A stretch of DNA of 64,000 nt from Microbacterium trichothecenolyticum. GTDB taxonomy: Bacteria > Actinomycetota > Actinomycetes > Actinomycetales > Microbacteriaceae. Below, in pieces: positions 15,310 to 50,382 of this stretch. How positions within the stretch are numbered: position 1 is the first letter of the stretch; each line of letters opens with the position of its first letter. Where the stretch lies: assembly GCF_030818955.1 (NCBI RefSeq), contig NZ_JAUTBF010000001.1:3658001-3722000 (forward strand). The letters run 5' to 3'. Under the pieces are notes generated by a model. That model made no database searches. It was not told the DNA's origin and saw only the letters and a program-made list of their open reading frames with translations. A program made the position numbers and the translations under genes.

Positions 15310-16251
15310 TCACTCTCTCTTCGGAGCGGCGGGGCGATCGGATGCCGTGGCGGGCGACAGCGTGAACACGGCGACGCCCGCGGCGATGAGCGCCATTGCG
15401 ATCGCGAGCCCCGAGGTGAGGGGTTCGTGCAGCAGGGGGACGGCGACCGCCGCGGTCAGGACGGGGCTGAGCGCTCCCGCCGTCGCGGTGATGCTGCTGC
15501 CGAGGTTCTTCACCGCGATCACGTAGCACGCCGTCGACAGCAGGCCGGTGCCGACGCCCTGCACGAGCGCGTACCAGCCGAACCCGGACAGATCGGCGGT
15601 TCCCGCCAGAATGCGCGACGGTAGGAAGCCGGTCGTCGCCAGTGCGAGCGCGGCGATCGTCGAGGTGACCGAGACGATCAGGATGACTCCGATGGGGTCC
15701 AGGCGCGTGCGGGCGAGGCCCAGCGTGTACAGGGCCCACACCAGACCCGCCGTGACGAGGACGCAGATACCGCCGATGTCGGCGGTGCCGCCGGTGAGCA
15801 GAGCGCTCGCGGCGACCCCCGCGACGACCGCGAGCAACGCCAGCAGGCGTCGGCCGCGGATCACCGTGCCCTCGCGCAGGAACAGCAGGATGGCGACGAA
15901 CAGGGGCACCGTCCCCGGAACGAGGAGCCCGGTGAGTGCGGCCGAGGTGAGGTGGGCCCCCTCGGCGAACAGCAGGAAATGGGGGAGGCCCGCGAGCAGG
16001 ACCAGGGCGATCACGAGGGGGCGTTCCGTGCGCAGTGCCCGCACCGTGCGCGGGAGGAAGGGTGAGAGCAGCAGCGCGGGCACGGCGAAACGGGCGAGGG
16101 CGGCGTCGACCGTCGTGAGACCGGCGGTCTCGAGCGCGCGCGTCGACAGCGCGAAGGCCGCCCAGAGCGTCACGACCGCGGCGAGAGCCGCACCCCCGAC
16201 GAACAGGCGCGGCGAGAGGCTCGGGCGGCGGGCGAGGGCGAAGGTGGTCAC
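15310..16251 (-). CDS. EamA/DMT-family transporter
   Basis: Ten hydrophobic segments in 313 residues, organised as two EamA repeats, mark a drug/metabolite transporter, usually an exporter of amino acids or other metabolites. GTG 16251 is the first in-frame start with the expected N-terminus. It is divergent from an Lrp/AsnC regulator 80 bp away, a common pairing for amino-acid exporters, so the regulator probably controls it in response to an amino acid. Confidence 0.85.
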   Translation of the reverse strand: MTTFALARRPSLSPRLFVGGAALAAVVTLWAAFALSTRALETAGLTTVDAALARFAVPALLLSPFLPRTVRALRTERPLVIALVLLAGLPHFLLFAEGAHLTSAALTGLLVPGTVPLFVAILLFLREGTVIRGRRLLALLAVVAGVAASALLTGGTADIGGICVLVTAGLVWALYTLGLARTRLDPIGVILIVSVTSTIAALALATTGFLPSRILAGTADLSGFGWYALVQGVGTGLLSTACYVIAVKNLGSSITATAGALSPVLTAAVAVPLLHEPLTSGLAIAMALIAAGVAVFTLSPATASDRPAAPKRE

Positions 16252-35427: not shown

Positions 35428-36447
35428 TCAGCCGAACGAGGCGTCGGGGTAGAGCGCTTCGGCGATCTGGCGCACGACCGAGACGTTTCCGAGGGTGCCC
35501 GGGAACATGTCGGAGCTCGAGACCGCGATCAGGCGACCGTTTCGCACCGCCGGCATGTCGGGGAACGTCGCGGTGAGGTACGCGCGTACGGCTTGCTCGT
35601 GGGCGGGATCGGTGACCGCGAACACGAGCGCGTCCGGTGCCTGGGCGGCGAGGGACTCGGGGGTGATCTCCGCGGCGAAGAAGTCGGCGAACTGGGGGTC
35701 GTCGGGCGTGTAGATCGTGTCGGCGCCCGCGTGACGGAGGATGTCGTACTCGACCCCCGCGCCGATCGCGCTGAGCGTGGTGCCGTCGACGTAGATCTGC
35801 GCGACGCGGGGCTTGGTACGGCCCTGGATCGCCGTGTCGACGGAGGCCAGCTGCGCTTTCGCGTCGGCGATCAGCGCCGCAGCTTCGTCGTGCACGTCGA
35901 AGATCTCGCCGAGGTTGTTCAGATCGACGAACAGGTCGTCGACCGTGCCGTCCATCCGGCGCGAGAAGCATCCCCCCGTCGCGGTGTACGCCGCGACTCC
36001 CGCCTCGGCGAGCTGCTCGATGCTCGCGAAGCCCTGCTCGGCCGTGAACTCGTAGGTCGTGGGGGAGTAGACGAAGTCGGGGTGGACGGCGAGGAGGTCC
36101 TCTCGGCTCGGGGGCGTTTCGCCTCCGATGACGGGTACGTCTGCCGCGAGGGGCGCCACGTCTGCCGGGAGCTCCTGCACGGTCGCCTGGGCTTGGCCGA
36201 CGAGGTGGTCGGCGAGTCCCAGGCGCAGCAGGAGCTCGGTCTGCGAGGGGTGCAGGCCGACCGCGGCGGTGGGGACGTGGGTGATCGTGACCGGTGCGCC
36301 GCAGTTCTCGATGACGAGGGCGTCCCCGGTGGGGGTGGCCGCACCTTGGGGCGCGACGGCGGAGCCGCAGGCGGTGAGCGCGAGTGCGCCGAGGCCGCCG
36401 GCGATCGCCATCATCAGGCGGGCGGGTCGAAGGGAGTGCTGTGTCAT
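35428..36447 (-). CDS. Siderophore/metal ABC transporter substrate-binding lipoprotein
   Basis: A 339-residue FecB/BtuF-like binding protein with a signal peptide and lipobox (LALTAC, Cys near 27). It has the two-lobed periplasmic-binding fold: AVGLHPSQTELLLRLGLADHLVG in the first lobe and SVVRQIAEALYPD at the end. An internal Cys pair (49 and 153) is possible. It delivers an iron or other metal chelate to the FecCD-type permease encoded upstream. It is last in a five-gene operon of overlapping genes that starts at the Fur-like box. Confidence 0.88.
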   Translation of the reverse strand: MTQHSLRPARLMMAIAGGLGALALTACGSAVAPQGAATPTGDALVIENCGAPVTITHVPTAAVGLHPSQTELLLRLGLADHLVGQAQATVQELPADVAPLAADVPVIGGETPPSREDLLAVHPDFVYSPTTYEFTAEQGFASIEQLAEAGVAAYTATGGCFSRRMDGTVDDLFVDLNNLGEIFDVHDEAAALIADAKAQLASVDTAIQGRTKPRVAQIYVDGTTLSAIGAGVEYDILRHAGADTIYTPDDPQFADFFAAEITPESLAAQAPDALVFAVTDPAHEQAVRAYLTATFPDMPAVRNGRLIAVSSSDMFPGTLGNVSVVRQIAEALYPDASFG

Positions 36448-37256
36448 TCGTTTCTCTCTGTCGGGGTATCGGATGGGGAGGGACCGCGAAGCGGACGGGG
36501 GTGAAAGGCCATGACGCGCGCGCCCGTGTCGATCTCCGTCGCCACGCGCGCCGTGACGCGGAAGACGCCGCCGACCAGGTCGGGGGTGAGAACGGCATCC
36601 GGCTGCCCGACCGCGACGAGGTGACCCTCATCGAGGACCGCGACCTCGTCGCAGAACGCCGCGGCGATGTTGAGGTCGTGGAGGGCGGCGATCACGGTCG
36701 TTCCGAGGCCGCTGACGACCCGCATGAGGTCGAGCTGGTGAGCGATGTCGAGATGGTTGGTCGGTTCGTCGAGCACGAGGATCTCGCCGTCCTGTGCCAG
36801 GGCGCGCGCGAGCATCACGCGCTGCCGCTGGCCTCCGGAGAGCCGGCGCACGAGGCGGTCCTCCAGATCGAGCACGTCGGCGGTGCGCAGCGCCTCCGTG
36901 ACGATCCGGCGGTCGTCGTCGGTGTCGCGGCTGAAGGGCGCGTGATGCGGAGCGCGCCCGACCATCACGGTCTCGCGCACCGTCAGGTCGAACTCCGAGG
37001 GGGCGTCCTGCAGCATGACCGCGACCCGGCGGGCGAGGGTGCGCGGCGGCAGCGTCGAGACGTCGACGCCGTCGATGCGTACGCGGCCGGCGTGCGGCCG
37101 GCGGCCCGTGAACAGGGTGCGCAGCAGGGTCGACTTGCCGCTGCCGTTGGGCCCGAGCAGGCCGAGGATCCGGCCGCGGCCGACCTCCAGCTCGACGTCG
37201 TGCAGAACGCGCCGTCCGCCGAGCTCCACGCTCACGGACTCGAAGGACACCGTCAT
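36444..37256 (-). CDS. Siderophore-type ABC transporter ATP-binding protein
   Basis: A 270-residue FecE/FepC-like ATPase: Walker A GPNGSGKST (about 37-45), QDAPSEFDLTV Q-loop, signature LSGGQRQRVMLARAL and Walker B ILVLDEPTNHLD. It powers import of metal chelates with the permease encoded just upstream, which it overlaps by ATGA; the ATG at 37256 is thereby fixed. Confidence 0.92.
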   Translation of the reverse strand: MTVSFESVSVELGGRRVLHDVELEVGRGRILGLLGPNGSGKSTLLRTLFTGRRPHAGRVRIDGVDVSTLPPRTLARRVAVMLQDAPSEFDLTVRETVMVGRAPHHAPFSRDTDDDRRIVTEALRTADVLDLEDRLVRRLSGGQRQRVMLARALAQDGEILVLDEPTNHLDIAHQLDLMRVVSGLGTTVIAALHDLNIAAAFCDEVAVLDEGHLVAVGQPDAVLTPDLVGGVFRVTARVATEIDTGARVMAFHPRPLRGPSPSDTPTERNE

Positions 37257-38362
37257 CGGTCGAACCCCGCCCTCTCGCCGCCGCGTCGCATGAGCCACAG
37301 GAAGAACGGCGCCCCGACGAACGCGGTGAGGATGCCGAGGGGGATCTCGGTCGGTGTGGCAACGGTCCGCGCGAGGAGATCGGCCACCATGAGGAAGAGC
37401 GCACCCCCGAGCACCGCGACCGGGACCATCCGGCGATGGTCCGAGCCCACCAGCAGACGCGCGACGTGCGGGACCACGAGCCCCACGAATCCGATGCCGC
37501 CGCTCACCGCGACGATCACCCCCGTGAGCAGGGAGGCGATCACGAGGAGGATTGCGCGCACCCTGGTGGTGCGCACCCCGACCGCGAGAGCGGACTCGTC
37601 GCCGGCTAGCAGGGCGTTCATCGATCGCGAGAGTCCGAAAGCGGCGATCAGAGCGATCGCGAGCGCGATCGCGGGGATCGTCAGCGACGACATGGTGGCG
37701 GCGGACACGCTGCCGAGGAGGAAGAACATCACGCTGACGACGTTCTGCGCGTCCGTCGTCAACGTCAGGTAGCTCGTGACGGCGCTCAGCAGGGAACCGA
37801 GAGCGACCCCCGCGAGGATCATGCGGGTCGGTGACAGCTCTCCGCGCGTCCGCGCCAGGAGCGCGACGAGCACGCAGGACCCGACGGCTCCGGCGAAAGC
37901 CGCCCCGCTCATCGTCACGCCGAGGAACGCGGCGCCGCCCGAGACGATCACGAGCACGGCACCCACGCTCGCGCCCGAGGACACCCCGAGGATGTAGGGC
38001 TCGGCGAGAGGATTGCGCACCACGGCCTGCATCATCGTGCCCGCAAGGGCCAGCCCCGCCCCGGCGAGTCCCGCGAGCAGCGCCCGCGGCAGACGGAACT
38101 GCCACACCGCCTGATCCTGCAGCGGGGTGAGAGAGCCGTCCGTCATCCACGGCATCCCCGGCACCAGGTGCCCGATCACGAGCTTCGCGGCGTCGATCGG
38201 CGGCACGGGCACGGGGCCGATCGCGCCGGAGAGCACGACCGTCACCACGAGCAGGACGGCGCTGACCGTCACTGTCACCCCGAGCGGCACGACCCTTCCT
38301 CCCTGCCGCGCGGCGCGCGGGACTGTCCGCCAGCGCGCGGTGCGCTGCGTCGTCGCGGTCAT
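37253..38362 (-). CDS. FecCD-family siderophore permease
   Basis: A 369-residue permease with about ten TM segments and the family motifs NPLAEPYILGVSSGASVGA, LAGVALGSLLSA and GGIGFVGLVVPHVARLLVGSDHR. As a single gene it should form a homodimer, unlike systems with separate FecC and FecD. The ATG at 38362 overlaps the stop of the S9 peptidase gene by ATGA. Confidence 0.92.
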   Translation of the reverse strand: MTATTQRTARWRTVPRAARQGGRVVPLGVTVTVSAVLLVVTVVLSGAIGPVPVPPIDAAKLVIGHLVPGMPWMTDGSLTPLQDQAVWQFRLPRALLAGLAGAGLALAGTMMQAVVRNPLAEPYILGVSSGASVGAVLVIVSGGAAFLGVTMSGAAFAGAVGSCVLVALLARTRGELSPTRMILAGVALGSLLSAVTSYLTLTTDAQNVVSVMFFLLGSVSAATMSSLTIPAIALAIALIAAFGLSRSMNALLAGDESALAVGVRTTRVRAILLVIASLLTGVIVAVSGGIGFVGLVVPHVARLLVGSDHRRMVPVAVLGGALFLMVADLLARTVATPTEIPLGILTAFVGAPFFLWLMRRGGERAGFDR

Positions 38363-40044
38363 CGGATGCCTCCGCTCGTCACGTCGGCGGCGAACTCGAG
38401 CACCGTGAGACCCAGTGCGTGCAGGTCGTCGAGCGCGTTGGCTCCGTGCCCCGCCGATGGAGCGGTCCACATCCGCGCGGGCGCGCCCAGTCGCTGCAGG
38501 GCGTCGACCGTGCGGCGCGTGTCGATGGCCCGGACGCGGGTGTCGCGGCCCAGGGTGATCCCGAGGAAGGCGGGGAGGCCCTCGGCATCCGTCCGCTCCT
38601 CGACCAGAGCGAGCGGGGAGAGACGGCGGAGCCGGTTGCGGGATGCGGCACTGCCGTCGTCGCCGAACTCCGATCGCCAGCCCGCCCCGAGCGGGTGCTC
38701 CGCGAGCGAGAGGAGGTCGAGGGGCGCGGCCGTCGTCACGACGCCCGCGCAGAGACCGGGATGCTGGAACGCGCAGCTCGCGGCGACGACTCCCCCCAGC
38801 GACGCGCCGACGAGCACGAGGAGATCGGGTCGTGTGATCCCCCGGTCGATGAGGGCACGCGCGATGTCGGCGAGGTCGTCGACCGCCTGCTGCTTACGCG
38901 CACCGCTGCCGGCCGCGCGCCACGAACCACCGCGCTCGCCGCCGCCGCGGATCTGGGCTGTCACGTAGGCGCCGCCGTGCGCGACCCAGGCGGGGACGGT
39001 GGGCTCGAAGACGGGGAGATGCGGAACCCCGAAGCCCCCGTAGCAGGCGAGGAGGAGCGGCCTCGGCCCGGAACCCTCGGCGGGTGCGGTGAGGTGGGCG
39101 GTGAGGGTCTCGCCGTCTCGCGCCGGGACATCGAGGCGGCGCGTCTGGCCCGTCGGCGCCTCGGGCGCGGCATCCGTCTCGGTGACGATCCGCGGCGGCG
39201 TGAGCGGGCCCTCGACGGCGAGATACAGGATGCCGTCGTCGATGCGCACCCCGGTGGTCGTCGACTCGCCCACCGCGGCGATGGTCGCCTCCCGTGCGCC
39301 CGTGGCGTCGACGCCCGAGACGACGGTCCGACCGTCGCGGACCCCCAGGATGACGATGCGGTCGTCGGCGACGGTGACATCGGTGATCCGCAGCGAGTCG
39401 TCGCGACGCGTCCAGCGGGTCGTGCCGGAGCAAGCGAGAGCGTCCACCCCGTCCGCGTGCCAGACGAGCACGCCGTCGGTGAGCGGGAAGGCGCCGTGCA
39501 ACGCGTTCCATCGCCCGAGCTGTCGTCCCGTGGCGCGATCGAACAGGCTCGTGCCCTGGCCGCGCGTCGTGCGGGCGAGCAGCCCGCGCGTGCCGCCGGG
39601 GAACAGGCGGCTGCGATGAGCGGGTTCCAGGGGCGTGGACGTCCACGCGCCGGAGTCGACGTCGAGGGTGACGAGTGCGTCGTCACGACTGGCGACGACC
39701 TCGAGGCAGCGCGAGTCGTCGCTCCACAGCACGGTGTCGTAGCGCAGCCGGATCTCCGGATGCAGGCGGAGGGCGCCGGATGCCACGTCGACGATGCCGA
39801 GCACGGCGTCCTCGCTCGCGTCCGCGGCCCATTCGATCGCGATGTGCCGGCGGTCGGGGGACGGGCTCATGCGATGGATGTGCCCGTCCGGGGCGATCAC
39901 GGTGCGGCCGTCGGCATGCCGGAGAGCGGGTCGGGGAGTGCCCGCCGCGCGGTCGAGGACGAATCCGCGAACGGGCAGCCCCGGGCGGGGGTGGCGCTCG
40001 TGCGCGGTGAGCGCCTCGTCGAGCGCGTCGCGGAGCGCGGTCAT
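38359..40044 (-). CDS. Cytosolic prolyl-oligopeptidase-family (S9) hydrolase
   Basis: A 561-residue protein with an N-terminal beta-propeller-like part (about 30-330) and a C-terminal alpha/beta hydrolase domain: LLACYGGFGVPHLP, TAQIRGGGERGGSW, nucleophile motif GASLGG (Ser near 438) and SAGHGAN for the histidine. No signal peptide is present, so it acts inside. S9 enzymes cut short peptides after proline; relatives also open siderophore backbones. Inside a metal-chelate import operon it may hydrolyse the imported chelator to release metal, or act in self-protection or maturation of the adjacent RiPP. Overlaps both neighbours by ATGA. Confidence 0.8.
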   Translation of the reverse strand: MTALRDALDEALTAHERHPRPGLPVRGFVLDRAAGTPRPALRHADGRTVIAPDGHIHRMSPSPDRRHIAIEWAADASEDAVLGIVDVASGALRLHPEIRLRYDTVLWSDDSRCLEVVASRDDALVTLDVDSGAWTSTPLEPAHRSRLFPGGTRGLLARTTRGQGTSLFDRATGRQLGRWNALHGAFPLTDGVLVWHADGVDALACSGTTRWTRRDDSLRITDVTVADDRIVILGVRDGRTVVSGVDATGAREATIAAVGESTTTGVRIDDGILYLAVEGPLTPPRIVTETDAAPEAPTGQTRRLDVPARDGETLTAHLTAPAEGSGPRPLLLACYGGFGVPHLPVFEPTVPAWVAHGGAYVTAQIRGGGERGGSWRAAGSGARKQQAVDDLADIARALIDRGITRPDLLVLVGASLGGVVAASCAFQHPGLCAGVVTTAAPLDLLSLAEHPLGAGWRSEFGDDGSAASRNRLRRLSPLALVEERTDAEGLPAFLGITLGRDTRVRAIDTRRTVDALQRLGAPARMWTAPSAGHGANALDDLHALGLTVLEFAADVTSGGIR

Positions 40045-41249
40045 CGGCCCACCGGGTCGGTGAAGCGCCCGGGAGGGGCGGGCCACAACAGGTGCCCGCC
40101 CTCGTCGAGGGAGTCGGGCATGTCGATCGTGGTGAGGCCGCCCTCGTCGTCGACGAGATGGATGACGCCGTCGCCGCCCGCTGTCACGGCGATGATGCCG
40201 GAGCGGGGATCGATCGCGACCGCTCGCCTGTGCGCGGGGCGCCCGTCGACGCCGTCCCACGGCATGCGGCCCGGGTGCGGCGGTGAGCCGAGCGGGGGGA
40301 GGGGAACCACTCGGGCGATGCGCCCCCTCACGCGGTCGATCACGACGAGGGCGTCGCCGTCGGGATGGATCACGGTGGTGGCGGCGATCCCCTGGGCCAG
40401 TGCGAAGCGGAAGACGAGGCCGTTCGGCAGCGGCACGGTGCGTGCGGCACCCGAGTGAAGGTCGATCTCGGCGAAGACGTTGGTCCACTCCGTCCAGCGC
40501 GACGGGTTCGTCGGGCCGCCGCGGAGCACGCCCGTCGCGTTCCCGGTGTCACTCGCGCGGCGCAGGTAGTAGGCGCGTCCGTCCGCGGGCCAGGGGATCA
40601 CGCCAAGGGCGTGCGGGGCGCCGTCGTCGATCGCGAACCTCTCCAGACCGCGCCCCGTGGCGACGCCGACGACACCCGTCTCGTGGTCGACCACGTCGCC
40701 GTGCCCGTCGTCGGCGAGGTCATCGCACACGCTGCCACGCAGTACGGGCACGTGCGCACCGAGGTCGAGAGCGCTCGCGAGCGGTATCGCCTCGATCGCG
40801 CCGGGATCGCGGTGGCGCAGCACGATCGTCGGCCGCCCGGTCGCCCGGTCCGGCGCTATCACGACGCCGGGCTCACCGGTGCGGGTTCGGAACCGCACGG
40901 AGGAGTCGCGAGCGAGATCGACGACCGTCACGACATCGTTCCACGCGTCGTCGTTCGCGCCGAGCCCGGGGGTGACGACGACCTGGGATCCGTCCGCCGA
41001 GGCGGCGAGGTGCTCGGCGGGGATCGCGATCGGGATGCGACGGATGCCATCCGGACCGCAGACGACGAGAGCACCGCCGCGGTCGTCCGCGAACGCCCAG
41101 GAGTCTCGCGCCTCGGGAGGGAGCACGAGGAAACCGGCGTGCTCGGCGAGCAGGGCGTCCGAGGCGACGACATGCCGAGAGTCCCCGTCGAGGGAGAAAA
41201 CGGTTCCTGCCCGGTGATCGGCGGCGAGAAGAGCAGTCCCTGAGAGCAT
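40041..41249 (-). CDS. Beta-propeller-like protein, unknown, first gene of the metal-uptake operon
   Basis: A 402-residue protein without a signal peptide. Repeating short strands with turn motifs such as DHRAGTVFSLDGDS, DRATGRPTIVL and DPRSGIIAVTAGGDGVIHLVDDE suggest a seven-bladed propeller. No catalytic motif is seen. It resembles the N-terminal part of its S9 neighbour, so the two may form a complex, or it may bind the peptide or chelate. The ATG at 41249 lies 7 nt after a minus-strand TAGCAT box, making it leaderless, and just downstream of the Fur-like palindrome. Confidence 0.65.
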   Translation of the reverse strand: MLSGTALLAADHRAGTVFSLDGDSRHVVASDALLAEHAGFLVLPPEARDSWAFADDRGGALVVCGPDGIRRIPIAIPAEHLAASADGSQVVVTPGLGANDDAWNDVVTVVDLARDSSVRFRTRTGEPGVVIAPDRATGRPTIVLRHRDPGAIEAIPLASALDLGAHVPVLRGSVCDDLADDGHGDVVDHETGVVGVATGRGLERFAIDDGAPHALGVIPWPADGRAYYLRRASDTGNATGVLRGGPTNPSRWTEWTNVFAEIDLHSGAARTVPLPNGLVFRFALAQGIAATTVIHPDGDALVVIDRVRGRIARVVPLPPLGSPPHPGRMPWDGVDGRPAHRRAVAIDPRSGIIAVTAGGDGVIHLVDDEGGLTTIDMPDSLDEGGHLLWPAPPGRFTDPVGR

Positions 41250-41256
41250 GACGGCG

Positions 41257-41285
41257 ATGCTACTAGATATTGAGAATCATTCTCA
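41257..41285. promoter_or_regulatory. Fur/Zur-like palindrome between the uptake and RiPP operons
   Basis: TGAGAATCATTCTCA at 41271-41285 is a perfect 7-1-7 palindrome close to the Fur box core (TGATAATNATTATCA) and to actinobacterial Zur boxes. On the minus strand it sits just upstream of a -10 box (TAGCAT, 41262-41257) of the propeller gene. On the plus strand TAGGGT (41288-41293) follows it. One metal-sensing repressor could therefore control both divergent operons. The site does not resemble the DtxR/IdeR consensus. Confidence 0.75.
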
Positions 41286-41363
41286 TTTAGGGTCGATGAC
41301 GTTCACGACGGTGAACGCCGCTTCGCACCCGCGGAGTGGACGTAACGAGAGAAGGAGAAGGAA

Positions 41364-41462
41364 ATGGACAAGCAGATCCTGTCCGAGATCGAAGAGACCG
41401 AGCAGCTGGCGCACCTGTCGGCGACCCACTCGAACGCGCTCGTCGAGAACCCCTTCGAGTGA
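41364..41462 (+). CDS. Candidate RiPP precursor peptide (32 residues)
   Basis: A short gene with a strong ribosome site (GAAGGAGAAGGAA) at the head of the RiPP operon. The peptide has an acidic, helix-like N-terminal half (DKQILSEIEETEQLAHL, residues 2-18) typical of a leader. Its C-terminal part contains Ser19, Thr21, His22, Ser23 and ends ENPFE. There is no cysteine, so a YcaO enzyme could only make oxazol(in)es from Ser/Thr. The only proline is Pro30. A 13-bp hairpin separates it from the enzyme genes, a common way to raise precursor dosage. It was chosen by position, size and ribosome site; the core boundary is unknown. Confidence 0.7.
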   Translation: MDKQILSEIEETEQLAHLSATHSNALVENPFE

Positions 41463-41470
41463 TCCTCGAG

Positions 41471-41525
41471 GTCGCGTCACGCTGACGCGACCCCCGGCCG
41501 GGCGCCTCGCGCCCGGCCGGGCTTT
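41471..41525 (+). terminator. Double hairpin (partial terminator) after the precursor gene
   Basis: GTCGCGTCA/TGACGCGAC (9-bp stem, 41471-41491) is followed by CCCGGCCGGGCGC/GCGCCCGGCCGGG (13-bp stem, 3-nt loop, 41493-41521) and CTTT. It probably ends most transcripts after the precursor and lets a fraction continue into the enzyme genes. Confidence 0.7.
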
Positions 41526-41538
41526 CGGAAAGACATCC

Positions 41539-42342
41539 ATGCCTCACCACCCCCGAATCACCCCCGTGCCCGCAACCGGTGCCCATGTCGTCGCTGTCGA
41601 CGAGGACGCGCCGCTGCTGCGACTTCGCACCGGAGACCACGCCGCGATCGGCTCCCCGCCGTCGGAACTGCACGGCGTCCTCGACTCGCCTGCCCCGGGT
41701 GCCGCCGCATCCGCGTATCGGGATCGGCTGGTCGGCGAGGTCCAGGAGCGCGAGCGCGCCGACGACGAACGCCGCTGGCCTTCGGCCCGCCGCCGCATCG
41801 GCGTGGTGGGCACCGGCGTGCTGTCCGACGAGATCGCGCGTGCACTGGGGGCGTGGGGCGCTCGGGTGGGGAGGGGCATCTCCGCCGCGGAGGCGCGAGA
41901 TTCCGTCGCGCTGGTCATCTCGGTGTCAGACGGGGCGTCGGAGCGCCGCGATCACGCCGTGCTCGACGACCTCCTCGCCACCGGCACCGCTCGGTTGCGC
42001 GTGTACCGGGAAGGGGAGTGCGTTCTCGTCGATCCGCTCGCGGTCGATGTCACCGACATCACGGCCGCGCAGGTCGCGCGGCGTCGGATCGCCGCCAGCA
42101 CCGTGCCGGACGCTCTCGGCGCGTGGCAGCGCCACGGACCTGTGGCGGATCAGCCCGTGGACTCGGCGACCGTCAGCCTCGTGACGGCGCGCGTGCTCAC
42201 GATGACTCTCGCGTGGGCGCAGGACGACGAGGCGCTGCCCCGACTGCGCACCACACTCTGGAAACTGGTGCCCGCGCTCGGCCGAGTGACCGAGCACCCG
42301 GTGCTGCCCTACCCGACGCCGTACCCGGGAGCGGGCCGGTGA
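41539..42342 (+). CDS. E1-like / leader-recognition protein of azole RiPP synthesis
   Basis: A 267-residue protein whose middle has a nucleotide-binding-like strand IGVVGTGVLSDEIARALG (about 87-104). Its end VTEHPVLPYPTPYP is typical of the truncated ThiF/E1-like partners of YcaO enzymes. Such proteins bind the precursor leader and present it to the cyclodehydratase. CxxC zinc motifs of true E1 enzymes are lacking, as in ocin-ThiF-like partners. ATG 41539 follows GGAAAG. The gene overlaps the CocE-like gene by GTGA. Confidence 0.75.
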   Translation: MPHHPRITPVPATGAHVVAVDEDAPLLRLRTGDHAAIGSPPSELHGVLDSPAPGAAASAYRDRLVGEVQERERADDERRWPSARRRIGVVGTGVLSDEIARALGAWGARVGRGISAAEARDSVALVISVSDGASERRDHAVLDDLLATGTARLRVYREGECVLVDPLAVDVTDITAAQVARRRIAASTVPDALGAWQRHGPVADQPVDSATVSLVTARVLTMTLAWAQDDEALPRLRTTLWKLVPALGRVTEHPVLPYPTPYPGAGR

Positions 42343-43313
42343 TCCCGCCGCGGGACGCCCGCCCGCACGTCTGGCGCACCGACGACGGCGTCGCTCTGCA
42401 CGGCTGGATCTGGGAGCCCGAGACCCCGCGGGGCATCGTCGTGGTGCGCACGCCCTACGGCGTCTGGCGTCACGGGGACACCGCCCGCTCCTGGGTGCGG
42501 CGCGGGTACCGCTGCCTCGTGCAGGACGTGCGCGGCCGCCACGACTCCGGGGGCGAGTGGAACCCCTACCTCCACGAGCGTCGTGACGGCGCATCCGTCG
42601 TCGCCGCGCTCCGCGCCCAGGATCCGCACCTCCCCGTCGTGCTCTCGGGAGGGTCGTACGACGCCCACGCGGCGCTGGAATGCGCCCGCGACGTCGACGT
42701 CGACGCGCTCGTGCTCATGGTGCCCGCCCTCGGACTCGCCGAGACCGCCTGGGACGCGGAGGGTCGCCCCCAGCTCTTCGACCGCATCGGGTGGTGGCAT
42801 CAGCACGGACGCGGTCCCCGCTCGTTCCCCGCGTTGACGGAGGGCGAGCTGCACGCGCGGGTTGCGAGCGCTGAGCGGCGGGGCGTGGAACGGGCGGCTC
42901 GGGACTGGGAATGGGCGCCGGCCGTGCTCGCGGGGTGGCGGAGACTGTGGACGACTCCGCCCGTCGACCTGGACCGCGCGTACGGGGCGATCGACGCCCC
43001 GCTTCTGCTCATCCGCGGCGACGACGACTTCTTCTACGCCGATGCCGGGCGACTGGCCGCCGCGTGGGGAGCCGACGTGCACGTCGTCGACGGGCCGTGG
43101 GGCCATCGCCTCGGAGCCGACATCCACGATGAGGATGTGCGTGCTCGCCTCCGGGACTCGGGCGGGATCGGCGGTGTGCTCGATGCGTGGCTCGCACGTA
43201 CCGGCCTGCCCTCGGGAGTCGCCGGCACTCGCCATGTCGTGCCGGTGGGCCGACGATCGCGGTCCGCCTTCGAGCCGCGCTCCGGTCGCTGGCATCACGA
43301 AAGGACAGCATGA
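42339..43313 (+). CDS. CocE/NonD-family (S15-like) alpha/beta hydrolase
   Basis: A 324-residue cytosolic hydrolase: RTPYGVWRHGD, QDVRGRHDSGGEW, nucleophile in SGGSYDAH (Ser near 106), acid in RGDDDFFY and histidine in DGPWGHR. The family includes Xaa-Pro dipeptidyl peptidases and cocaine esterase. Within the RiPP operon it may remove the leader or trim the modified peptide; the precursor's single Pro30 would suit an X-Pro specificity. It is shorter than classical CocE, lacking the C-terminal jelly roll. Confidence 0.8.
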   Translation: MIPPRDARPHVWRTDDGVALHGWIWEPETPRGIVVVRTPYGVWRHGDTARSWVRRGYRCLVQDVRGRHDSGGEWNPYLHERRDGASVVAALRAQDPHLPVVLSGGSYDAHAALECARDVDVDALVLMVPALGLAETAWDAEGRPQLFDRIGWWHQHGRGPRSFPALTEGELHARVASAERRGVERAARDWEWAPAVLAGWRRLWTTPPVDLDRAYGAIDAPLLLIRGDDDFFYADAGRLAAAWGADVHVVDGPWGHRLGADIHDEDVRARLRDSGGIGGVLDAWLARTGLPSGVAGTRHVVPVGRRSRSAFEPRSGRWHHERTA

Positions 43314-44701
43314 CCCGCGACAGCATCTCGTCCCTCCCGCCTCTTCCCGTCGAGACCCTGGTGGACGCCGAGACCGGTGTCATCCGGTCGATCCGCGCGG
43401 TTGCGCACCCGGCGGGGGCTCCGCACCGCTACCTCGCGCTCACGGCATCCGTCTCCGACGCCCGAGCCCTGGGCGAGTGGCCGGCCGATCGGGTCTCGCT
43501 CGGCACGTCGTTCGGCGACCCCGCCCAGGCCCGGATCGCGGCGATCGGCGAGGGCGTCGAGCGGTACTGCGGCAATTGGCTCCCCGAGACCTTGCCGCAC
43601 GACGACCTGCGCGTCGCCACCGCCGACGAGCTGCGGGCGGACGGGCACCCGGTGATCGCGCTCGACGACCTGCCCCGGTTCGCCGATTGGCAGCTCGCCC
43701 GGGAGGGCTTCGCCTACCGGGAACTGGATGCCGCGACCCCCGCGCTCTGGGCACGGTGCCGGGATGCCGAGGGCAGGCCGATCTGGCTGCCCGACGCCCT
43801 CGTGCACCTCAACTGGAGGCAGTCGCGCTTCCGGCACCTTCCCCGCACGCACCACCTCAACTACGCCGGTATCGCCACCGGAACGAGTGTCGACGACGCG
43901 CGCGACCGCGGGATGCTCGAGGTCGTCGAACGCGACGCGCTCGAGGTGTGGTGGCATCTCGACGGGCCGACGTTCGGCATCGATCCCGCGAGTGTTCCCG
44001 GCCTGGTGGACGACCTGCGGGGCAGCAGCTTGAGGGTCTGGCTGGTGGCGATGCCGTCGGAGTTCGCTCCCGCGATCGCGGCCCTCGTACACGACGCGGA
44101 TCGCGGGCTGTACGCCGCGGGCTTCTCCGTCGCGCTCGACCCCGCGAAGGCGGCACGCAAGGCCGTGCTCGAAGCGGTCCACACGTGGATCTACACCCAG
44201 GGCTGCACGGATGCCGACGGGTGGGTCTTCCGCGCCGTGCAGGCCGGGGTCATGGCGAAGGGGCTGATGCTGGACTTCCGCCCCGACGCCGACTACCTCA
44301 CCGCGGCCGGCCCGCAGTTCGAGCGGGTGATCGATCTCGGAGCCCATGTCCAGGTCTGGCTCGATCCCGCCGTTCACGGCGAGGCGCGGCGGTTCACCGA
44401 TCCCGCGCTCGGGGTGCGACCGCTCAGCGCCGTGCCCGCGGTCACGATGGCCGAGGTTCACGACCGACTGCGTCGGCGGGGCCATCGCGTGCTCACGCGC
44501 GACCTCACCACCGCGGATGTGCGCCGCACCCCGCTGCGGGTCGTGCGCACATTCGTCACGGGGCTCGTGCCCAATGCTCCGGCGGCCTTCTCGTACCTCG
44601 GGATGCCGCGACTGCGCGACGCGGCGCACGAGCGAGGGTGGCGCGCGGCCTGGAGCGGCGGACCCGAGGATTTCACGCTCCTGCCCGCGCCCCACATGTG
44701 A
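43310..44701 (+). CDS. YcaO-domain cyclodehydratase
   Basis: A 463-residue YcaO protein. ATP-binding motifs are visible: AAIGEGVERY (residues 77-86, with Glu81, Glu84 and Arg85) and MLEVVERDALEVWW (202-215, Glu207-Arg208-Asp209). The C-terminus LLPAPHM is a short version of the proline-rich tail of azoline-forming YcaO enzymes. These enzymes phosphorylate the amide backbone and cyclise Ser, Thr or Cys side chains to azolines. No TfuA partner is present, so thioamidation is less likely. ATG 43310 follows GAAAGGA and overlaps the preceding stop by ATGA. Confidence 0.88.
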   Translation: MTRDSISSLPPLPVETLVDAETGVIRSIRAVAHPAGAPHRYLALTASVSDARALGEWPADRVSLGTSFGDPAQARIAAIGEGVERYCGNWLPETLPHDDLRVATADELRADGHPVIALDDLPRFADWQLAREGFAYRELDAATPALWARCRDAEGRPIWLPDALVHLNWRQSRFRHLPRTHHLNYAGIATGTSVDDARDRGMLEVVERDALEVWWHLDGPTFGIDPASVPGLVDDLRGSSLRVWLVAMPSEFAPAIAALVHDADRGLYAAGFSVALDPAKAARKAVLEAVHTWIYTQGCTDADGWVFRAVQAGVMAKGLMLDFRPDADYLTAAGPQFERVIDLGAHVQVWLDPAVHGEARRFTDPALGVRPLSAVPAVTMAEVHDRLRRRGHRVLTRDLTTADVRRTPLRVVRTFVTGLVPNAPAAFSYLGMPRLRDAAHERGWRAAWSGGPEDFTLLPAPHM

Positions 44702-44711
44702 GGCGGACGAC

Positions 44712-45749
44712 GTGATCGATCCGCGACCGGCCGTTCTGCCGCACTCCGTCGGCCTTCTCGACGGCCCTCTCGCGCGCGTGCTCACGACGGACCCTCCGGG
44801 GGAGCCGTTGCCTCCGGGACCGCGCGTCAACGCCTGGCACCGTGCCGGTGCGGTGGCGGGGAGTCCCGGGGCGGCGCTGATCGCCCTCGTCGAGGCGCTG
44901 TGGCATCCGGGGGAACCGCATCGCGCCTCGAACGGCACCGAGACCGCAATCCCGCGCCGTCCGGTGCCGTCGGCGGGGGCGTGCTACCCCGTGCAGACGC
45001 ACCTCGTCGTCGACGGCGCGCGCTGGGTCTACGACCACGACCACGGTGTCGCCCGCCGCAGGGATCCCGCCATCGAGCGCGCCGCGGGGTGGCCCGGCGG
45101 CGACGTCACGGCATCCGACACCGCGACGCTCGTCTTCACCGTGCAGCCGGGACGATCGTTCGGCCGGTACCGGCACCGCGCATGGCCGCTGTGGATCGCC
45201 GACGCGGCCTACGCGCTCGCGGCCTTGGAGTTCGTCCTCGGACGCCTCCCGGCCTCCGTGCGATACGGTCCTTCCGCGTCTCTTCGCACGGTGCTCGCCG
45301 TCCCTCGTGCGGCGCAGACGCCCTCGTGGACAGGTCTCGGGCTCGCCCCGGAGATCCCGCTCGTCGCCGTCGACGTGCCCTCGCGTCCCGAGCTGATCGG
45401 CGACGCCGTCCAGACCCTCGCGCAACGACGTTCGCCGAGCCTCGACCTCTTCCTCGCGCGCGCCGCGTCGCGTCGCCCGACGCCGTGCCTCGAGGATGTC
45501 GCCCGCGCCTCCGGTCAGGCATGGGTCCGCGGGGCGGCGGCGGTCCGCTCGTGGTCGGTTCGGATCCCGTCCTCGCCCGCTCAGCTCGCCCGGGCGGTGT
45601 GGACCGGTCATCTCGCCGCCGCCCGCCTCGCGTACGCCGGGGCGTTGCGCGGCGCGGACTCCCGCCCCGTCTCCGGTCTCGCCGCCCAGGGGGACCGGTG
45701 GATCTTCCACGCCCTCGCCTTCCTCGACCCTCCGGGAGATTGCCCATGA
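44712..45749 (+). CDS. SagB-type FMN dehydrogenase
   Basis: The 345-residue product has the nitroreductase-like signature RRPVPSAGACYP (82-93), QTHLVV and RYRHRAWPLWIADAAYAL (about 155-172), as in SagB/McbC enzymes. These use FMN to oxidise azolines to aromatic azoles. The sequence is diverged, and the C-terminal third (about 230-345) looks like a second, incomplete nitroreductase-like half. GTG 44712 is 10 bp after the YcaO stop; its own stop overlaps the exporter start as ATGA. Confidence 0.78.
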   Translation: MIDPRPAVLPHSVGLLDGPLARVLTTDPPGEPLPPGPRVNAWHRAGAVAGSPGAALIALVEALWHPGEPHRASNGTETAIPRRPVPSAGACYPVQTHLVVDGARWVYDHDHGVARRRDPAIERAAGWPGGDVTASDTATLVFTVQPGRSFGRYRHRAWPLWIADAAYALAALEFVLGRLPASVRYGPSASLRTVLAVPRAAQTPSWTGLGLAPEIPLVAVDVPSRPELIGDAVQTLAQRRSPSLDLFLARAASRRPTPCLEDVARASGQAWVRGAAAVRSWSVRIPSSPAQLARAVWTGHLAAARLAYAGALRGADSRPVSGLAAQGDRWIFHALAFLDPPGDCP

Positions 45750-47390
45750 TGATCGTCCCCGCACTGTGGCGGGAGGCGTGGCGCGCCCCACGCCTCCTCG
45801 CCGCGAGCGTCCTGCTCCAACTCCTCGTGTTCGCGACGCACGTCGCGCAGGCCGTCGCTCTCGCGGTCGCCCTGGCGGCGCTCGTGCACGGCGATGCGGG
45901 AGGTGCGCTCCTCGGCATCGGTGCCATCCTCGGGAACCGGCGTCGCGCGCCTGCTGCTGGGCCTCGCTCAGCGCGACGCCGCCGTGCGGCTCGGCGGCCG
46001 CGTGCGCGAAGAGCTGCGAGCGCGGGCCGTCTCGGCCGTGCTCACCCCGGAACGGCTCCACGACGTGTCGTTGCGCGACGGCTCCACCCGCCTCACGCTC
46101 GGCGACGGCATCGACGGCACCGAGGCCTACGTGTCGAAGTACATCCCGGCGGTCGTGCAGCTGGGCGTCGGCGGCATCGGCGTCGTCGTCGCCCTCGCGA
46201 CGCTCTCTCCGGGGCTCGCCGCGGGGATCGGCCTCGCCCTGATGCTCGCGGTGCTCGGGCCGATGGCATGGAAGAAGATGCTCGCGCGCCGAGGATTCAC
46301 GCACTGGGATACGTACGAGGCGCTCAGCGGCGACCTGCTCGAGGCGCTCCGTGGCATGTCGACGCTGCGCGCGCTGGGCGACGTCCCCGCGACGCGCGCG
46401 CGCCTCCAGGCACGCTCGGAGGCGTTGCGTCAGGCGACCGAACGGGTGATGCGCTCGTCGCTCGCCGAGACGGCGATCACGGATTTCGCGATCCAAGCCG
46501 GAGCCGTACTCGCCGCGGGAGTCGCGATCGTCGCCGTGCTCACCGGGCAGGCGCCGGCGACGGAGGTGTACGTGCTGTTGCTGCTGTCGTCCGAGGCGTT
46601 CCGTCCGGTACGCGAGCTCTCGCGTCATTGGCACGCGGGGTTCCTCGGCCTCACCGCGGTGCCCGGGCTGCGCGCACTGGGTGCCTTCTCCGACGCCGAC
46701 TCCGCGGATCGCCGACACCCGGCATCCCTCCCTCCGGCGAAGGGAGCGGGGGCGGAGCTCGTGATCACCGGCCTGTCCTACCGCTATCCCGGGGCCGAGT
46801 CGCCCGTGCTGGACGGCGTGTCCCTGCGCGCCGAGCGTGGTGCGGTCCACGCCATCATCGGCCCGTCGGGAGCGGGCAAGTCGACCCTGTTCGATCTCGT
46901 GCTCGGCTTCCTCCGCGCCGACCGGGGGAGCGTCGAGCTCGACGGTCGACCTCTGCGCGCCGACGACGTCGCGGTGGTCTCTCAGCGTCCCGTCCTGTTC
47001 GCGGCGACCGTGCGCGAGAACATCGACCTGTTCGGATCGCCGCAGGGCGAGCTCGAGCGCGCCTGCGCGGATGCCGGGGTGCTCGACGAGATCCTCGCCC
47101 TGCCCGGAGGCTTCGACGCGCCCGTCGCCGAGGCCGGGGCGAGCCTCTCCGGGGGCCAACGGCAAAGGCTCGCCCTCGCCCGTGCCCTCCTGGCCCGCCG
47201 CCCCGTGCTGCTGGTCGACGAGCCGACGAGCGCCCTCGACGACGCCAACGCGGAGCTGGTCGCACAGACCCTGGAGCGGGTCGCCGCCGATCGCATCGTC
47301 CTGATGATCAGCCACCGTCCCGAGGCGCTCCGCCGCGTCGCTCACGTGCACGTGCTCGAGGGTGGCGCTCTCGTGGAGGCGGCGTCGTGA
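45746..47390 (+). pseudogene. ABC exporter half-transporter, frameshifted near residue 64
   Basis: The protein starts at ATG 45746 and runs through a TM region ending LLGIGAILG, then loses frame. The remainder (ARLLLGLAQRDAAVRLGG, then the full TMD and ATPase) continues one base further on from about 45938. Removing one A from GGGAACC (45932-45938) would restore a single CDS of about 547 residues with Walker A GPSGAGKST, signature LSGGQRQRLALARAL and Walker B VLLVDEPTSALD. Together with the next gene it should form a CydDC-like heterodimer for peptide export. Either the gene is broken, the base is an assembly error, or expression needs frameshifting. The downstream part could start at ATG 45894. 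Confidence 0.8.
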
Positions 47391-49054
47391 GCGGCGGGAC
47401 GGCCTCGGTCCTGGCCCGCCTGATCCCGCCGCTGCGGCCCGAGTGGCGGCGCATCGTCGGCAGCTACGTCCTCGCGACCACGAGCCTGCTCGCCCTCGCG
47501 GCGATCGGCGTGCTCGCCGCCCTGAGCGTCGGCGGCGCCGTCGTGCACGGTCAGTGGCCGTCCGCGGCCTGGTGGGTCGCCCTGGTCGCGCTCGTGCTGC
47601 TTCGGACCCTTCTCACCTGGCGGGAGATGGACGTCTCGCACGCCCTCGCGTACCGGGTGCTCGCCCGCTTGCGAGTCGCCCTGTTCGACGCCTACGCCCG
47701 CAGTGTCCCGGCCCGCCGCCGCGAGCACTCCGGGAGGGCCGCATCGGTGGCGATGACCGACATCGAGAAGCTCGAGTTCTTCTACGCGCACACCCTCGCC
47801 CAGCTCGGCGCCTCGGTGACGCTCTTCGTGGCGGCGCTCGGGGTCGCGGCGGTTCTGATGCCGGCCGCGGCCGTCGTCATGGTGCTCGGTGCCGCCCTCG
47901 TCGCCCTGACGGCATGGGTGGGCGCCGGGGCGACGCGGCGCGTCGGCGAAGAGGAGCAGGGGGAGCGCGAGCGCCTGTCGGAGCGGCTGGTCGACGCCCT
48001 GGGGGCGTTGCGCGAGGTGCTCGCGTACGGGCTGCAGGACCGTGTCGTCGCCGACGCCGTCGCGGCCACGCGGCGCTCGGTCCGAACCGCTCGTCGCCGC
48101 GAGTTCCTCGCGGGCGTCATCGACGGGTCGCGCGAACTGATCCTCACCGGTGTCCTCATCGGTGTCGTCGCCTCGGCCCTGTTCGTCGGAGGCGTCGGTG
48201 ACCCCCGGTCGGCGGCGCTGGCTCCGGCGGTCCTCGCCCTCGCCGTCGCCGGGGTCGCGGCGATCGCCGATGCGGCGCACACTCTCTCGGAGCTGCACCC
48301 TCTGGTGGCCAGCGCAGCCCGCGTCGACGAAGGACTGCGTCGGTCGCCCGTCGTCGCTCCGGTCGTCGACGCTCGTCCCGTGCCGGCCGGACCGCTCGGC
48401 ATCCGCTTCCACGATGTCGAGTTCTCCTACGACGATCGCACGCGGGTGCTGCGGCGCTGGTCGGCCGAGGTGCACCCGGGCGAGCACGTCGGGATCGCAG
48501 GGCCGTCCGGTGCGGGCAAGAGCACCGTGATCGCCCTGGCCGCGCGGCTCTGGGACCCCGACGGCGGCGAGATCGCGCTCGTCGACAGCAACGGACGGGG
48601 GATGCCACTGCGTGAGGTGGCGGAGGAGGATCTCCGTGCCGCCGTGGCCGTCGTCGAGCAGGACGCGCGTCTGTTCCACGGCACGGTGCGTGACAACCTC
48701 CTGCGGGGCACGGCCGGTCGAACGGACGCGGACCTCGTCGGCATCCTGGACCGCGTCGGCGCCCGCGACTGGATCAGCCTCGACGACGAGCTCGGCGAGC
48801 ACGGCGTCCGTCTCTCGGGAGGCCAGCGCGCCCGGCTCGCCCTCGCCCGCGCGCTCTGTCGCGAGCCGCGGATCCTGATCGTCGATGAGATCACCGCGAG
48901 CCTGGACCCGACGACCGAGAAGGCGATCTCGCAGGTGCTCGCCGAGGTCGACGCGACCGTCGTCGTCGCCTCGCACCGTCGGGAGACACTCGCCCGGCTC
49001 GGCCGCGTGCTGCGGGTGGAGCCACCGGCCGGTGCAGCCTCACCCTCCGAGTGA
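47387..49054 (+). CDS. ABC exporter half-transporter (TMD-ATPase)
   Basis: A 555-residue protein with six TM segments (about 20-300) and an ATPase domain: Walker A GPSGAGKST, QDARLFHGTV Q-loop region, signature LSGGQRARLALARAL, Walker B ILIVDEITASLDP. It resembles CydC/CydD- and multidrug-type exporters. GTG 47387 overlaps the preceding ABC gene by GTGA, so the pair is translated together. It is the last gene of the RiPP operon and presumably exports the finished peptide. Confidence 0.88.
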   Translation: MSGGTASVLARLIPPLRPEWRRIVGSYVLATTSLLALAAIGVLAALSVGGAVVHGQWPSAAWWVALVALVLLRTLLTWREMDVSHALAYRVLARLRVALFDAYARSVPARRREHSGRAASVAMTDIEKLEFFYAHTLAQLGASVTLFVAALGVAAVLMPAAAVVMVLGAALVALTAWVGAGATRRVGEEEQGERERLSERLVDALGALREVLAYGLQDRVVADAVAATRRSVRTARRREFLAGVIDGSRELILTGVLIGVVASALFVGGVGDPRSAALAPAVLALAVAGVAAIADAAHTLSELHPLVASAARVDEGLRRSPVVAPVVDARPVPAGPLGIRFHDVEFSYDDRTRVLRRWSAEVHPGEHVGIAGPSGAGKSTVIALAARLWDPDGGEIALVDSNGRGMPLREVAEEDLRAAVAVVEQDARLFHGTVRDNLLRGTAGRTDADLVGILDRVGARDWISLDDELGEHGVRLSGGQRARLALARALCREPRILIVDEITASLDPTTEKAISQVLAEVDATVVVASHRRETLARLGRVLRVEPPAGAASPSE

Positions 49055-49204
49055 CGCGGCCTCGCCGGGGAGAGCCGCTGCCAGTGCCTACGGTGTCTCG
49101 GCCGGCTGGGCATGGTGATCGAGGATGCGGCCAGGGGTCTGCTGCACGGATAGGTGACATCTGATCTGGCTTGCTCCGAGGGGTGGGCCTGGAAGGATGC
49201 CATC

Positions 49205-49522
49205 GTGCCCAAGCCTTATCCGAAGGAGTTCCGTGACGACGTGGTGCGCGTTGCGGAGAACCGTGAGCCCGGCATGACGATCGAGCGGATCGCCGCCGAT
49301 TTCGGTGTTCACCCGATGACCCTCATGAAGTGGCTCGCCCGATCGCGTGCCGAGAAGATCGCCTCCGAGACGGGCTCGCCGTCGCCCAGCGACTGCGACG
49401 CCGAGCTTCGCGAGTTGCGCCAGCGCAACCGGCTGCTCGAGCAGGAGGTCGAGGTGCTGCGCCGGGCGACGGCGTATCTGTCACAGGCGCATCTGCCGGG
49501 AAAAGGCTCTACCCGCTCGTGA
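49205..49522 (+). CDS. IS3 transposase OrfA
   Basis: The 105-residue product has the helix-turn-helix (PYPKEFRDDVVRVA, then IERIAADFGVHPMTLMKWL) and a leucine-zipper-like coil (ELRQRNRLLEQEVEVLRRA) of IS3 OrfA proteins. GTG 49205 is taken as start because the family N-terminus begins there. Near its end the heptamer GGGAAAA (49498-49504) fits a -1 slippery site leading into OrfB. Confidence 0.88.
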   Translation: MPKPYPKEFRDDVVRVAENREPGMTIERIAADFGVHPMTLMKWLARSRAEKIASETGSPSPSDCDAELRELRQRNRLLEQEVEVLRRATAYLSQAHLPGKGSTRS

Positions 49523-50382
49523 AAGAGCTCGCCTGTGACGGGATCCCCGTCGCGGTGACGTGCCGGGTCCTTACGCTCGCCCGCCAGCCCTACTATCGCT
49601 GGCTCAAACAGCCCATCACCGAGTCGGAACTGGTGGAGGCCTATCGCGCGAACGCGCTGTTCGACGCGCATCGCGACGACCCCGAGTTCGGGCATCGCCT
49701 CCTCGCTGACGAGGCCCGGGATGTCGGGGAGGCGATGTCGGACCGGACTGCGTGGAAAATCGCGTCCGAGAACGGCTGGTGGTCCGCATTCGGCAAGAAG
49801 AAGGCACGCGGCAAGGGCCGCAAGACCGGCCCGCCCGTTCACGACGATCTCGTGCAGCGGGAGTTCACCGCCGACGCTCCGAACCGGCTCTGGCTGACCG
49901 ACATCACCGAGCATCGAACCAGCGAGGGCAAGCTCTACCTCTGCGCGATCAAGGACGTCTTCAGCAACAAGATCGTCGGCTACTCGATCGACGCGCGGAT
50001 GAAATCCCGCCTCGTGGTGAACGCGATCGACAACGTCGCCGCGCTGCGCGGAAACGTCGCCGGCTGCGTCGTACATTCCGACCGCGGATCGCAGTTTCGC
50101 TCCCGGAGAGCGATTCGCGACCTGGCCCGTCACCGCATGGTCGGATCGATGGGCAGAGTCGGTGCCGCGGGCGACAACGCCGCCATGGAGTCGTTCTTCT
50201 CGCTCCTGCAGAAGAACGTCCTCAACCGACGCTCCTGGACCACCCGCGAACAGCTGCGCATCGCGATCGTCACCTGGATCGAGCGAACCTACCACCGACG
50301 CCGCCGACAAGACCGCCTCGGCCGTTTGACCCCGGTCGAGTTCGAGACCATGATGACCAAAACCCTGGCCCTCGCGGCCTGA
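49519..50382 (+). CDS. IS3 transposase OrfB (rve integrase core)
   Basis: Contains the HTH_21 region and the DDE integrase core: LTDITEH (first Asp), VVHSDRGSQF (second Asp) and NAAMESFF (Glu). The frame is open from 49330; it is normally made as an OrfAB fusion by -1 slippage at GGGAAAA. GTG 49519 is the first plausible independent start, giving 287 residues. The full DDE set suggests an intact element. Confidence 0.9.
   Translation: MKELACDGIPVAVTCRVLTLARQPYYRWLKQPITESELVEAYRANALFDAHRDDPEFGHRLLADEARDVGEAMSDRTAWKIASENGWWSAFGKKKARGKGRKTGPPVHDDLVQREFTADAPNRLWLTDITEHRTSEGKLYLCAIKDVFSNKIVGYSIDARMKSRLVVNAIDNVAALRGNVAGCVVHSDRGSQFRSRRAIRDLARHRMVGSMGRVGAAGDNAAMESFFSLLQKNVLNRRSWTTREQLRIAIVTWIERTYHRRRRQDRLGRLTPVEFETMMTKTLALAA

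Follow-up and report, generated by a model that had tools for sequence, protein, structure and literature searches.

The ami locus and its gene products

The 64-kb window analysed here (the whole stretch of 64,000 nucleotides, positions 3,658,001 to 3,722,000 of contig NZ_JAUTBF010000001.1 from Microbacterium trichothecenolyticum) contained at 35428-49054 a perfect palindrome flanked by two divergent operons, and this locus was, as judged from its sequence, almost certainly a member of the streptamidine (ami) family of ribosomally synthesized and post-translationally modified peptides (RiPPs). The precursor matched NCBIfam NF040714 (streptamidine family RiPP) with 65.1 bits against a cut-off of 40, and the rest of the ami gene set was matched by the YcaO protein AmiD together with the E1-like AmiB, by AmiC and AmiE, and by Fec-type amiF genes with one permease; both exporter genes amiT1/T2 were also present, the first of them frame-broken in this assembly. 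The major ami cluster type, comprising over 90 clusters, is described in PMC8442711 as having four FecBCDE-like genes (amiF1-F4), amiA, amiB, amiC, amiD (YcaO), amiE, and two ATP-binding cassette (ABC) transporters, with amiX as an additional gene in Streptomyces albidoflavus J1074. The family was already known and the cluster is new to it; the gene set of the cluster, importer included, matched the ami cluster published in 2021. Streptamidine itself is reported as HLSATH with a six-membered amidine rather than azoles, with HLSAT and HLSA as shorter forms (PMC8442711); the product family and the amidine of its isolated form spoke against the azole RiPP of the preliminary description.

The plus-strand operon began with amiA (41364-41462), encoding the 32-amino-acid precursor MDKQILSEIEETEQLAHLSATHSNALVENPFE with the same HLSATH core as streptamidine. 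It was followed by (i) amiB (41539-42342), encoding a leader-binding and E1-like fold partner, whose model (predicted local distance difference test [pLDDT] 90.3) had LynD/TruD-type heterocyclases and McbB as its top PDB fold matches, and whose profile searched against PDB gave a doubtful formyltransferase match (E 0.0015) ahead of a weak TruD line at 0.3; (ii) amiC (42339-43313), encoding an S15/CocE-type hydrolase (PF02129, 2.7e-16); (iii) amiD (43310-44701), encoding the YcaO cyclodehydratase (PF02624, 3.3e-40), which matched TIGR03604 at 4e-55 with 187.2 bits, under the cut-off of 219.25; and (iv) amiE (44712-45749), encoding a SagB/nitroreductase-like dehydrogenase, for which TIGR03605 (SagB) was matched at E <=1 by 23 of 25 family members (best 5.7e-13; window AmiE 0.054) and the family profile matched nitroreductase and SagB-type chains in PDB. 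The operon ended with two ABC half-exporter genes, amiT1 (45746-47390) and amiT2 (47387-49054), the products of which matched PF00005 and PF00664 (on the larger piece in the case of AmiT1). The break in amiT1 lay near 45.93 kb and split the gene into two frames, compared with one frame in all six relatives inspected; the assembly may be at fault, or the loss may be real or recent.

The minus-strand operon was ordered outwards from the promoter as (i) an amiX-like gene (40041-41249), encoding a beta-propeller whose model (pLDDT 92.6) had AztD as its top fold match; (ii) an S9 prolyl-oligopeptidase-type hydrolase gene (38359-40044; PF00326, 5.7e-26); (iii) the single FecCD-type permease gene (37253-38362; PF01032, 7.9e-93; start codon checked); (iv) a FecE-type ATPase gene (36444-37256; PF00005, 7.9e-33); and (v) the gene of a Peripla_BP_2 FecB-type solute-binding lipoprotein (35428-36447; PF01497, 3.3e-21; lipobox LTAC by eye), the last three being the amiF genes. 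The propeller gene would be the amiX homologue, given the position of such genes beside the importer in Streptomyces loci. For the ATPase, the best NCBIfam matches were the F420-0, EitC, corrinoid, heme, and FecE types, all under cut-off; F420-0 importer, the top NCBIfam name for the importer, was rejected as a name at scores far under the cut-off. Three proteins without any Pfam match (propeller, E1-like protein, and dehydrogenase) were placed by fold or profile instead.

Adjacent genes shared 4-base overlaps, with the exceptions of a 10-bp gap after the YcaO gene and a 76-bp gap after the precursor gene. Both operons had been proposed in the preliminary description from open reading frames, the plus-strand one with a precursor, an E1-like protein, a YcaO, a SagB-type dehydrogenase, a hydrolase, and an ABC exporter pair, and the minus-strand one with a FecB/FecE/FecCD-type importer, an S9 hydrolase, and a propeller; Pfam, profile, and fold evidence bore out the former, Pfam and fold evidence the latter, and the overlapping or nearly overlapping arrangement of the genes was found as described. 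Scanning the intergenic region for promoters and terminators yielded no useful result.

A Zur-type box in this genome and across ami loci

The palindrome TGAGAATCATTCTCA at 41271-41285 was a 7-1-7 inverted repeat with 100% complementarity, located upstream of both operons at 21 bp from the propeller ATG and 78 bp from the precursor ATG; the perfect metal-repressor-like palindrome claimed earlier was confirmed. The Zur motif of Streptomyces coelicolor, derived from 172 regions of chromatin immunoprecipitation (ChIP), is given as tGaNNatSatNNtCa (PMC5472717). Its only exact match in the window was the palindrome itself, and at <=1 mismatch three matches were found in the 64 kb, compared to an average of 0.34 in shuffles. 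Genome-wide, TGANAATNATTNTCA occurred at three exact places and at eight within one mismatch, with three further places at two mismatches, and its backward control at none, even at two mismatches.

The neighbouring genes were read at the seven other places within one mismatch, and five of the seven lay at zinc-type genes. The copies were found (i) at 2800256, at znuA (PF01297) with a Fur-family gene (PF01475) 1.7 kb further on; (ii) at 137098, opening a plus-strand run of genes that includes a surface protein and, 7.8 kb on, a ZnuA-domain protein; (iii) at 3247963, at a CobW gene (PF02492); (iv) at 1227622, at a second CobW-like gene, named by sequence; (v) at 1822549, at an L36-like ribosomal gene (by sequence) whose divergent neighbour encodes a CobW_C protein (PF07683); (vi) at 128629 (C1:128629-128643), at the start of a gene in an Opp-type ABC importer operon; and (vii) at 1351107 (C1:1351107-1351121), with one mismatch, overlapping the start of a minus-strand magnesium-chelatase-like AAA+ gene (by sequence). 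Two Fur-family genes were present in the genome, and the one at 2803001-2803414 (PF01475) would be the natural Zur candidate. The palindrome fitted the Zur (zinc) motif and not a DtxR-type iron box, and the ami locus is very probably under Zur control; the Fur/Zur-like box of the preliminary description stood as a metal-regulator box common to both operons and was narrowed, most likely, to Zur.

The binding protein of the Opp-type operon near 128629 resembled, by eye, the one carrying the only other strict box in Streptomyces coeruleorubidus. In the 9.3 Mb of that genome, the strict pattern had two sites, at the ami importer and at an Opp-type operon, and the boxed Opp-type operon is possibly a conserved, little-known zinc-related importer. 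Of the three ZnuA genes of S. coeruleorubidus, one had a ChIP-motif site with one mismatch at its start, one had two sites with two mismatches upstream, and the third had no site in the stretch examined; given these uneven ZnuA sites, the strict pattern alone did not capture the full zinc regulon there.

The sequence comparison was extended to 80 ami loci, collected with a 23-protein AmiD alignment as the best 80 of 203 confirmed ones, distant clades being under-sampled. The precursor was found in 76 of the 80, with a core pattern HxSA(S/T)H; this 76/80 is the informative figure, core-conservation counts resting on a search pattern that fixed most positions. The remaining four (L029, L069, L072, and L094), in which the sequence began within about 2.4 kb upstream of amiD, were left out of the box counts. 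In the 300 bp upstream, the best match to the ChIP motif had 0, 1, 2, 3, and 4 mismatches in 32, 25, 16, 2, and 1 loci, respectively; the motif was within one mismatch in 57 of 76 loci, compared to none of 380 shuffles (12 of which reached two mismatches) and to 51 of 4883 other 300-bp tiles of the same loci, importer promoters included. In all but one of the 76 loci, the distance from the best match to the core downstream of it was 117-152 bp, the exception being Jiangella (167 bp). With weighting over 21 labels (20 genera plus one metagenome-assembled genome labelled at family level), the box positions averaged 1.31 bits and the flanking 60 bp on each side 0.2-0.41 bits. The 76 loci share ancestry and are not independent, but the box has been kept while the sequence on either side of it diverged; by this measure, the box belongs to the streptamidine family, beyond this strain.

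Two further observations were made: ten loci, nine of Nocardiopsis and one of Glycomyces (L026, L028, L030-L033, L035, L037, L039, and L040), had a precursor with two copies of the core unit, and one genome of the same order (G139) had three near-equal AmiD matches on contigs C1 and C5, which may reflect either a duplication or the assembly.

A siderophore-like system for iron, controlled by Fur or DtxR/IdeR, was the least probable of the readings considered. The box also resembles the classical 7-1-7 pattern of Fur, and the FecBCDE-type importer genes are called iron transporters in PMC8442711. Against this, the genome co-sites lay at zinc-type genes as given above, the chrome azurol S (CAS) assay of streptamidine was negative (PMC8442711), and a DtxR-type pattern was absent from the 76 upstream regions: the DtxR/IdeR-type iron box was rejected with best matches of at least 8 mismatches in 19 positions in all of them, no better than in shuffles.

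Importer linkage and distant relatives

The preliminary description had proposed a neighbourhood search for co-occurring FecCD genes, with consistent lack of the importer in related clusters as the contrary outcome. A FecCD permease was found in 75 of the 76 precursor-bearing loci (the exception, L051, being a 7.4-kb contig), and this contrary outcome did not arise. The importer occurred in three layouts: (i) 34 loci had a divergent importer with one permease, like the window; (ii) 34 loci, 33 of Streptomyces and one of Microtetraspora, had a codirectional importer with two permeases; and (iii) seven loci had the importer downstream. In the second layout, a second box was located between the amiX homologue and the importer, with <=1 mismatch in 32 of 34 loci and with two mismatches in L060 and L093, and no S9 hydrolase match was found in any of the 34; in the third, a box with <=2 mismatches lay upstream of FecCD in four of seven (L053, L061, L068, and L080). 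A different importer type beneath the same kind of box argues, at the level of these sequence comparisons, for a functional need. Separately, Glycomyces fuscus (L040) had an exact Zur-type box (15992-16006) and a second FecCD (about 18104) downstream of its ami genes.

Distant sampling covered 396 genomes at the phylum and 398 at the family level, with a match in 8 of the former and 11 of the latter, and the loci taken from it were composed of ten divergent AmiD-like loci (L100, L101, and L108-L115), four close ones (L102, L103, L116, and L117), and four unrelated YcaO controls (L104-L107). In the close loci L102, L103, L116, and L117, the box next to the precursor had 0, 1, 0, and 2 mismatches, respectively; L116 and L117 looked like repeats of L068 and L061 and were kept outside the 76. 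Six of the divergent loci (L108-L113) contained a different precursor type, with the core VLSAPQGPGTNALVHNPF in two units, and kept both importer and box, the latter beside the precursor with one mismatch in three loci and two mismatches in the other three; L114 had a box near the importer. None of the four YcaO controls had a FecCD match or a box at one mismatch. One of them, L104 (C1:1755208-1755690), was a second, unrelated YcaO-like match in the genome of the window, and its 19 kb contained neither a FecCD match nor a Zur box at one mismatch.

Directly 3' of the window cluster lay a transposase pair (HTH_Tnp_1 and rve; 49154-50382), which we take to be of IS3 type, and further on, in a stretch of lower G+C, the gene of a 751-amino-acid protein with peptidoglycan-binding and Rv2525c-like glycoside hydrolase domains (50516-52771).

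A zinc-acquisition reading and its known counterparts

Family membership, the Zur-type box, its conservation, and the constant importer link are features of the sequences, and together with the gene set they suggest a streptamidine-family RiPP cluster that is repressed by Zur and works as a zinc-acquisition system, a reading to which we give a probability of roughly 0.6. Its best-founded step would be the repression of both operons by zinc through Zur. With zinc sufficient, Zn-Zur would sit on the box at 41271-41285 and both operons would be shut; with zinc short, both would be open. AmiB would then present the precursor to AmiD, which would cyclodehydrate the core serine, and AmiE and AmiC would oxidise and trim the peptide. 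The gene set further points to export, recovery, and unloading: the peptide would be exported by AmiT1/T2 to capture zinc outside, would be brought back by the FecB-type lipoprotein with FecCD/FecE, and would be stripped of zinc or recycled by the propeller and the S9 hydrolase. Zur binding of the box, zinc binding by the true product, and the import cycle are presumed in this scheme, as are the roles of the propeller and the hydrolase. The zincophore function of the peptide is unproven; that the ami product is a zinc ligand is slightly favoured.

For the propeller, AztD was the best structural match of the model, and the modelled fold is like that of AztD. In the propeller alignment, H37 and H183 were present in 33 of 33 proteins, and H80, H146, and H295 in 32 of 33; some of these may be counterparts of a three-His central zinc site as in AztD. 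No signal peptide was seen by eye, the propeller profile gave no convincing sequence match in PDB, and a viral fold search with the propeller returned generic propellers only. The AztD profile NF038015 had zero matches in the whole genome, and membership in the AztD family by sequence was rejected, the relation being kept as fold resemblance only.

The metal idea was not new: metal import was proposed for ami in 2021 and then tested by the same authors (PMC8442711), the streptamidine metal-binding and starvation tests being negative. Of the metallophore proposal in the preliminary description, the RiPP cluster and importer under a common box stood. According to PMC8442711, production was lost on deletion of amiB, amiC, amiD, amiE, or amiF1-F4 and lowered by deletion of amiT1-T2. 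The isolated streptamidine (HLSATH, HLSAT, and HLSA) may be a spent or side form rather than the ligand, and loss of an oxidised part is one option that the 2021 authors list for it (PMC8442711). If these forms were leftovers, three odd results would be explained together, namely that the dehydrogenase is needed yet the product is unoxidised, that the importer genes are needed, and that no metal is bound; a polar effect of the importer deletion would be an equally simple reason for the importer need, and in the two-permease Streptomyces loci the amiA promoter is situated behind the importer genes. The widest form of the reading is tentative, with somewhat less than even chances: the whole streptamidine family would be a Zur-controlled ribosomal zincophore system, streptamidine its returned zinc-free remnant, the ligand a larger or oxidised form, and AmiX a cytosolic AztD-like receiver of zinc or of the loaded peptide.

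Several points weigh against the zinc-acquisition reading. From the published work, streptamidine did not bind Fe, Co, Cu, Mg, Mn, Ni, or Zn in CAS or liquid chromatography-mass spectrometry assays, the amiD mutant behaved as the wild type under metal starvation, and amiX was not needed for production (PMC8442711). Among the compared loci, the box had four mismatches in Jiangella and three each in one Nocardiopsis and one Streptomyces; three of the seven loci with a downstream importer had no importer-side box (L074, L075, and L098, the two-mismatch match of L074 lying inside FecCD); FecCD was present in only eight of the ten divergent loci, L101 and L115 being without it; L100, L101, and L115 had neither a one-mismatch box nor a close one beside the precursor; and the VLSAPQGPGTNALVHNPF precursor type lacked the two core histidines. 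For the propeller, the lead of AztD over the next propellers was small, about 3 Z units (NirN 27.0), a YVTN surface-layer propeller was nearly level by E-value in Foldseek (3.4e-11, template modelling score 0.48), and NF038015 was touched by one of 33 homologues (E 0.092) and not by the window protein.

Part of this bears on a second, unlikely but not negligible reading, namely that the cluster is Zur-controlled but its peptide is a signal or competition factor in zinc shortage, the importer taking up the signal or a foreign zinc complex. The absence of metal binding and of a starvation phenotype, the retention of box and importer beside a precursor without core histidines, and the suggestion by the 2021 authors of signalling or development as the role (PMC8442711) agree with it. 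However, exporter, importer, propeller, and peptide genes remained linked across all three layouts and both importer types, more than a signal seems to need, and no antibacterial or antifungal activity is reported for streptamidine in PMC8442711. The third reading, improbable though a little less so than the iron one, is a ligand for copper, cobalt, or nickel that would owe its place in the zinc regulon to an additional effect on zinc. Metallophores are often unselective, and the core HxSA(S/T)H offers His and Ser; against this stand the zinc-type box in most loci and the streptamidine binding tests, which were negative for copper, cobalt, and nickel too.

For the zinc-acquisition reading, a testable condition, zinc depletion, is offered by the Zur-type box found at the majority of ami loci, and earlier blanks could have arisen from testing the wrong form of the molecule or from other zinc importers still being present. 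Streptamidine-like peptides occur in over 230 species with a role stated as unknown by their discoverers (PMC8442711), and the question of their purpose becomes a direct zinc-depletion experiment. Zur was nowhere mentioned in the main text of PMC8442711, and no link between the streptamidine family and Zur was found among the matches listed in the open-licence PMC literature, the scope of that search leaving subscription papers, preprints, and supplements outside; one listed paper, PMC12982422, contains both 'streptamidine' and 'zinc'.

The closest known system was the ami cluster of S. albidoflavus J1074 (PMC8442711), the likeness being judged from the text of that paper and from other Streptomyces loci. 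The two shared the HLSATH core, an ALV follower motif, AmiB-E, AmiT1/T2, a Fec-type importer, and an AmiX-like gene; the window differed in having one FecCD instead of two, an importer divergent from the precursor, one common box, a frame-broken amiT1, and an S9 hydrolase gene inside the importer operon. AztABCD (PMC6689063) was related through AztD, whose gene is Zur-controlled and whose fold the propeller matched best, but sequence-level membership was lacking, the window importer was of FecCD type instead of the cluster A-I zinc type, and many AztD proteins have a signal peptide, unlike the window propeller as seen by eye.

Two further groups are comparable in chemistry or in regulation. 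For the amidine RiPPs klebsazolicin and bottromycin, we know of no link to zinc or to an importer. The zincophore cluster of S. coelicolor with known Zur sites is, we assume, that of coelibactin. Klebsazolicin and bottromycin share YcaO-made amidine chemistry with the ami family (PMC8442711, as far as described there), and the S. coelicolor cluster likewise has biosynthesis genes with Zur sites (PMC5472717), whereas coelibactin is described as non-ribosomal (PMC3430247) and the window peptide is ribosomal. If the zinc-acquisition reading is true, it would add a ribosomal peptide to the zincophores of non-ribosomal and opine type.

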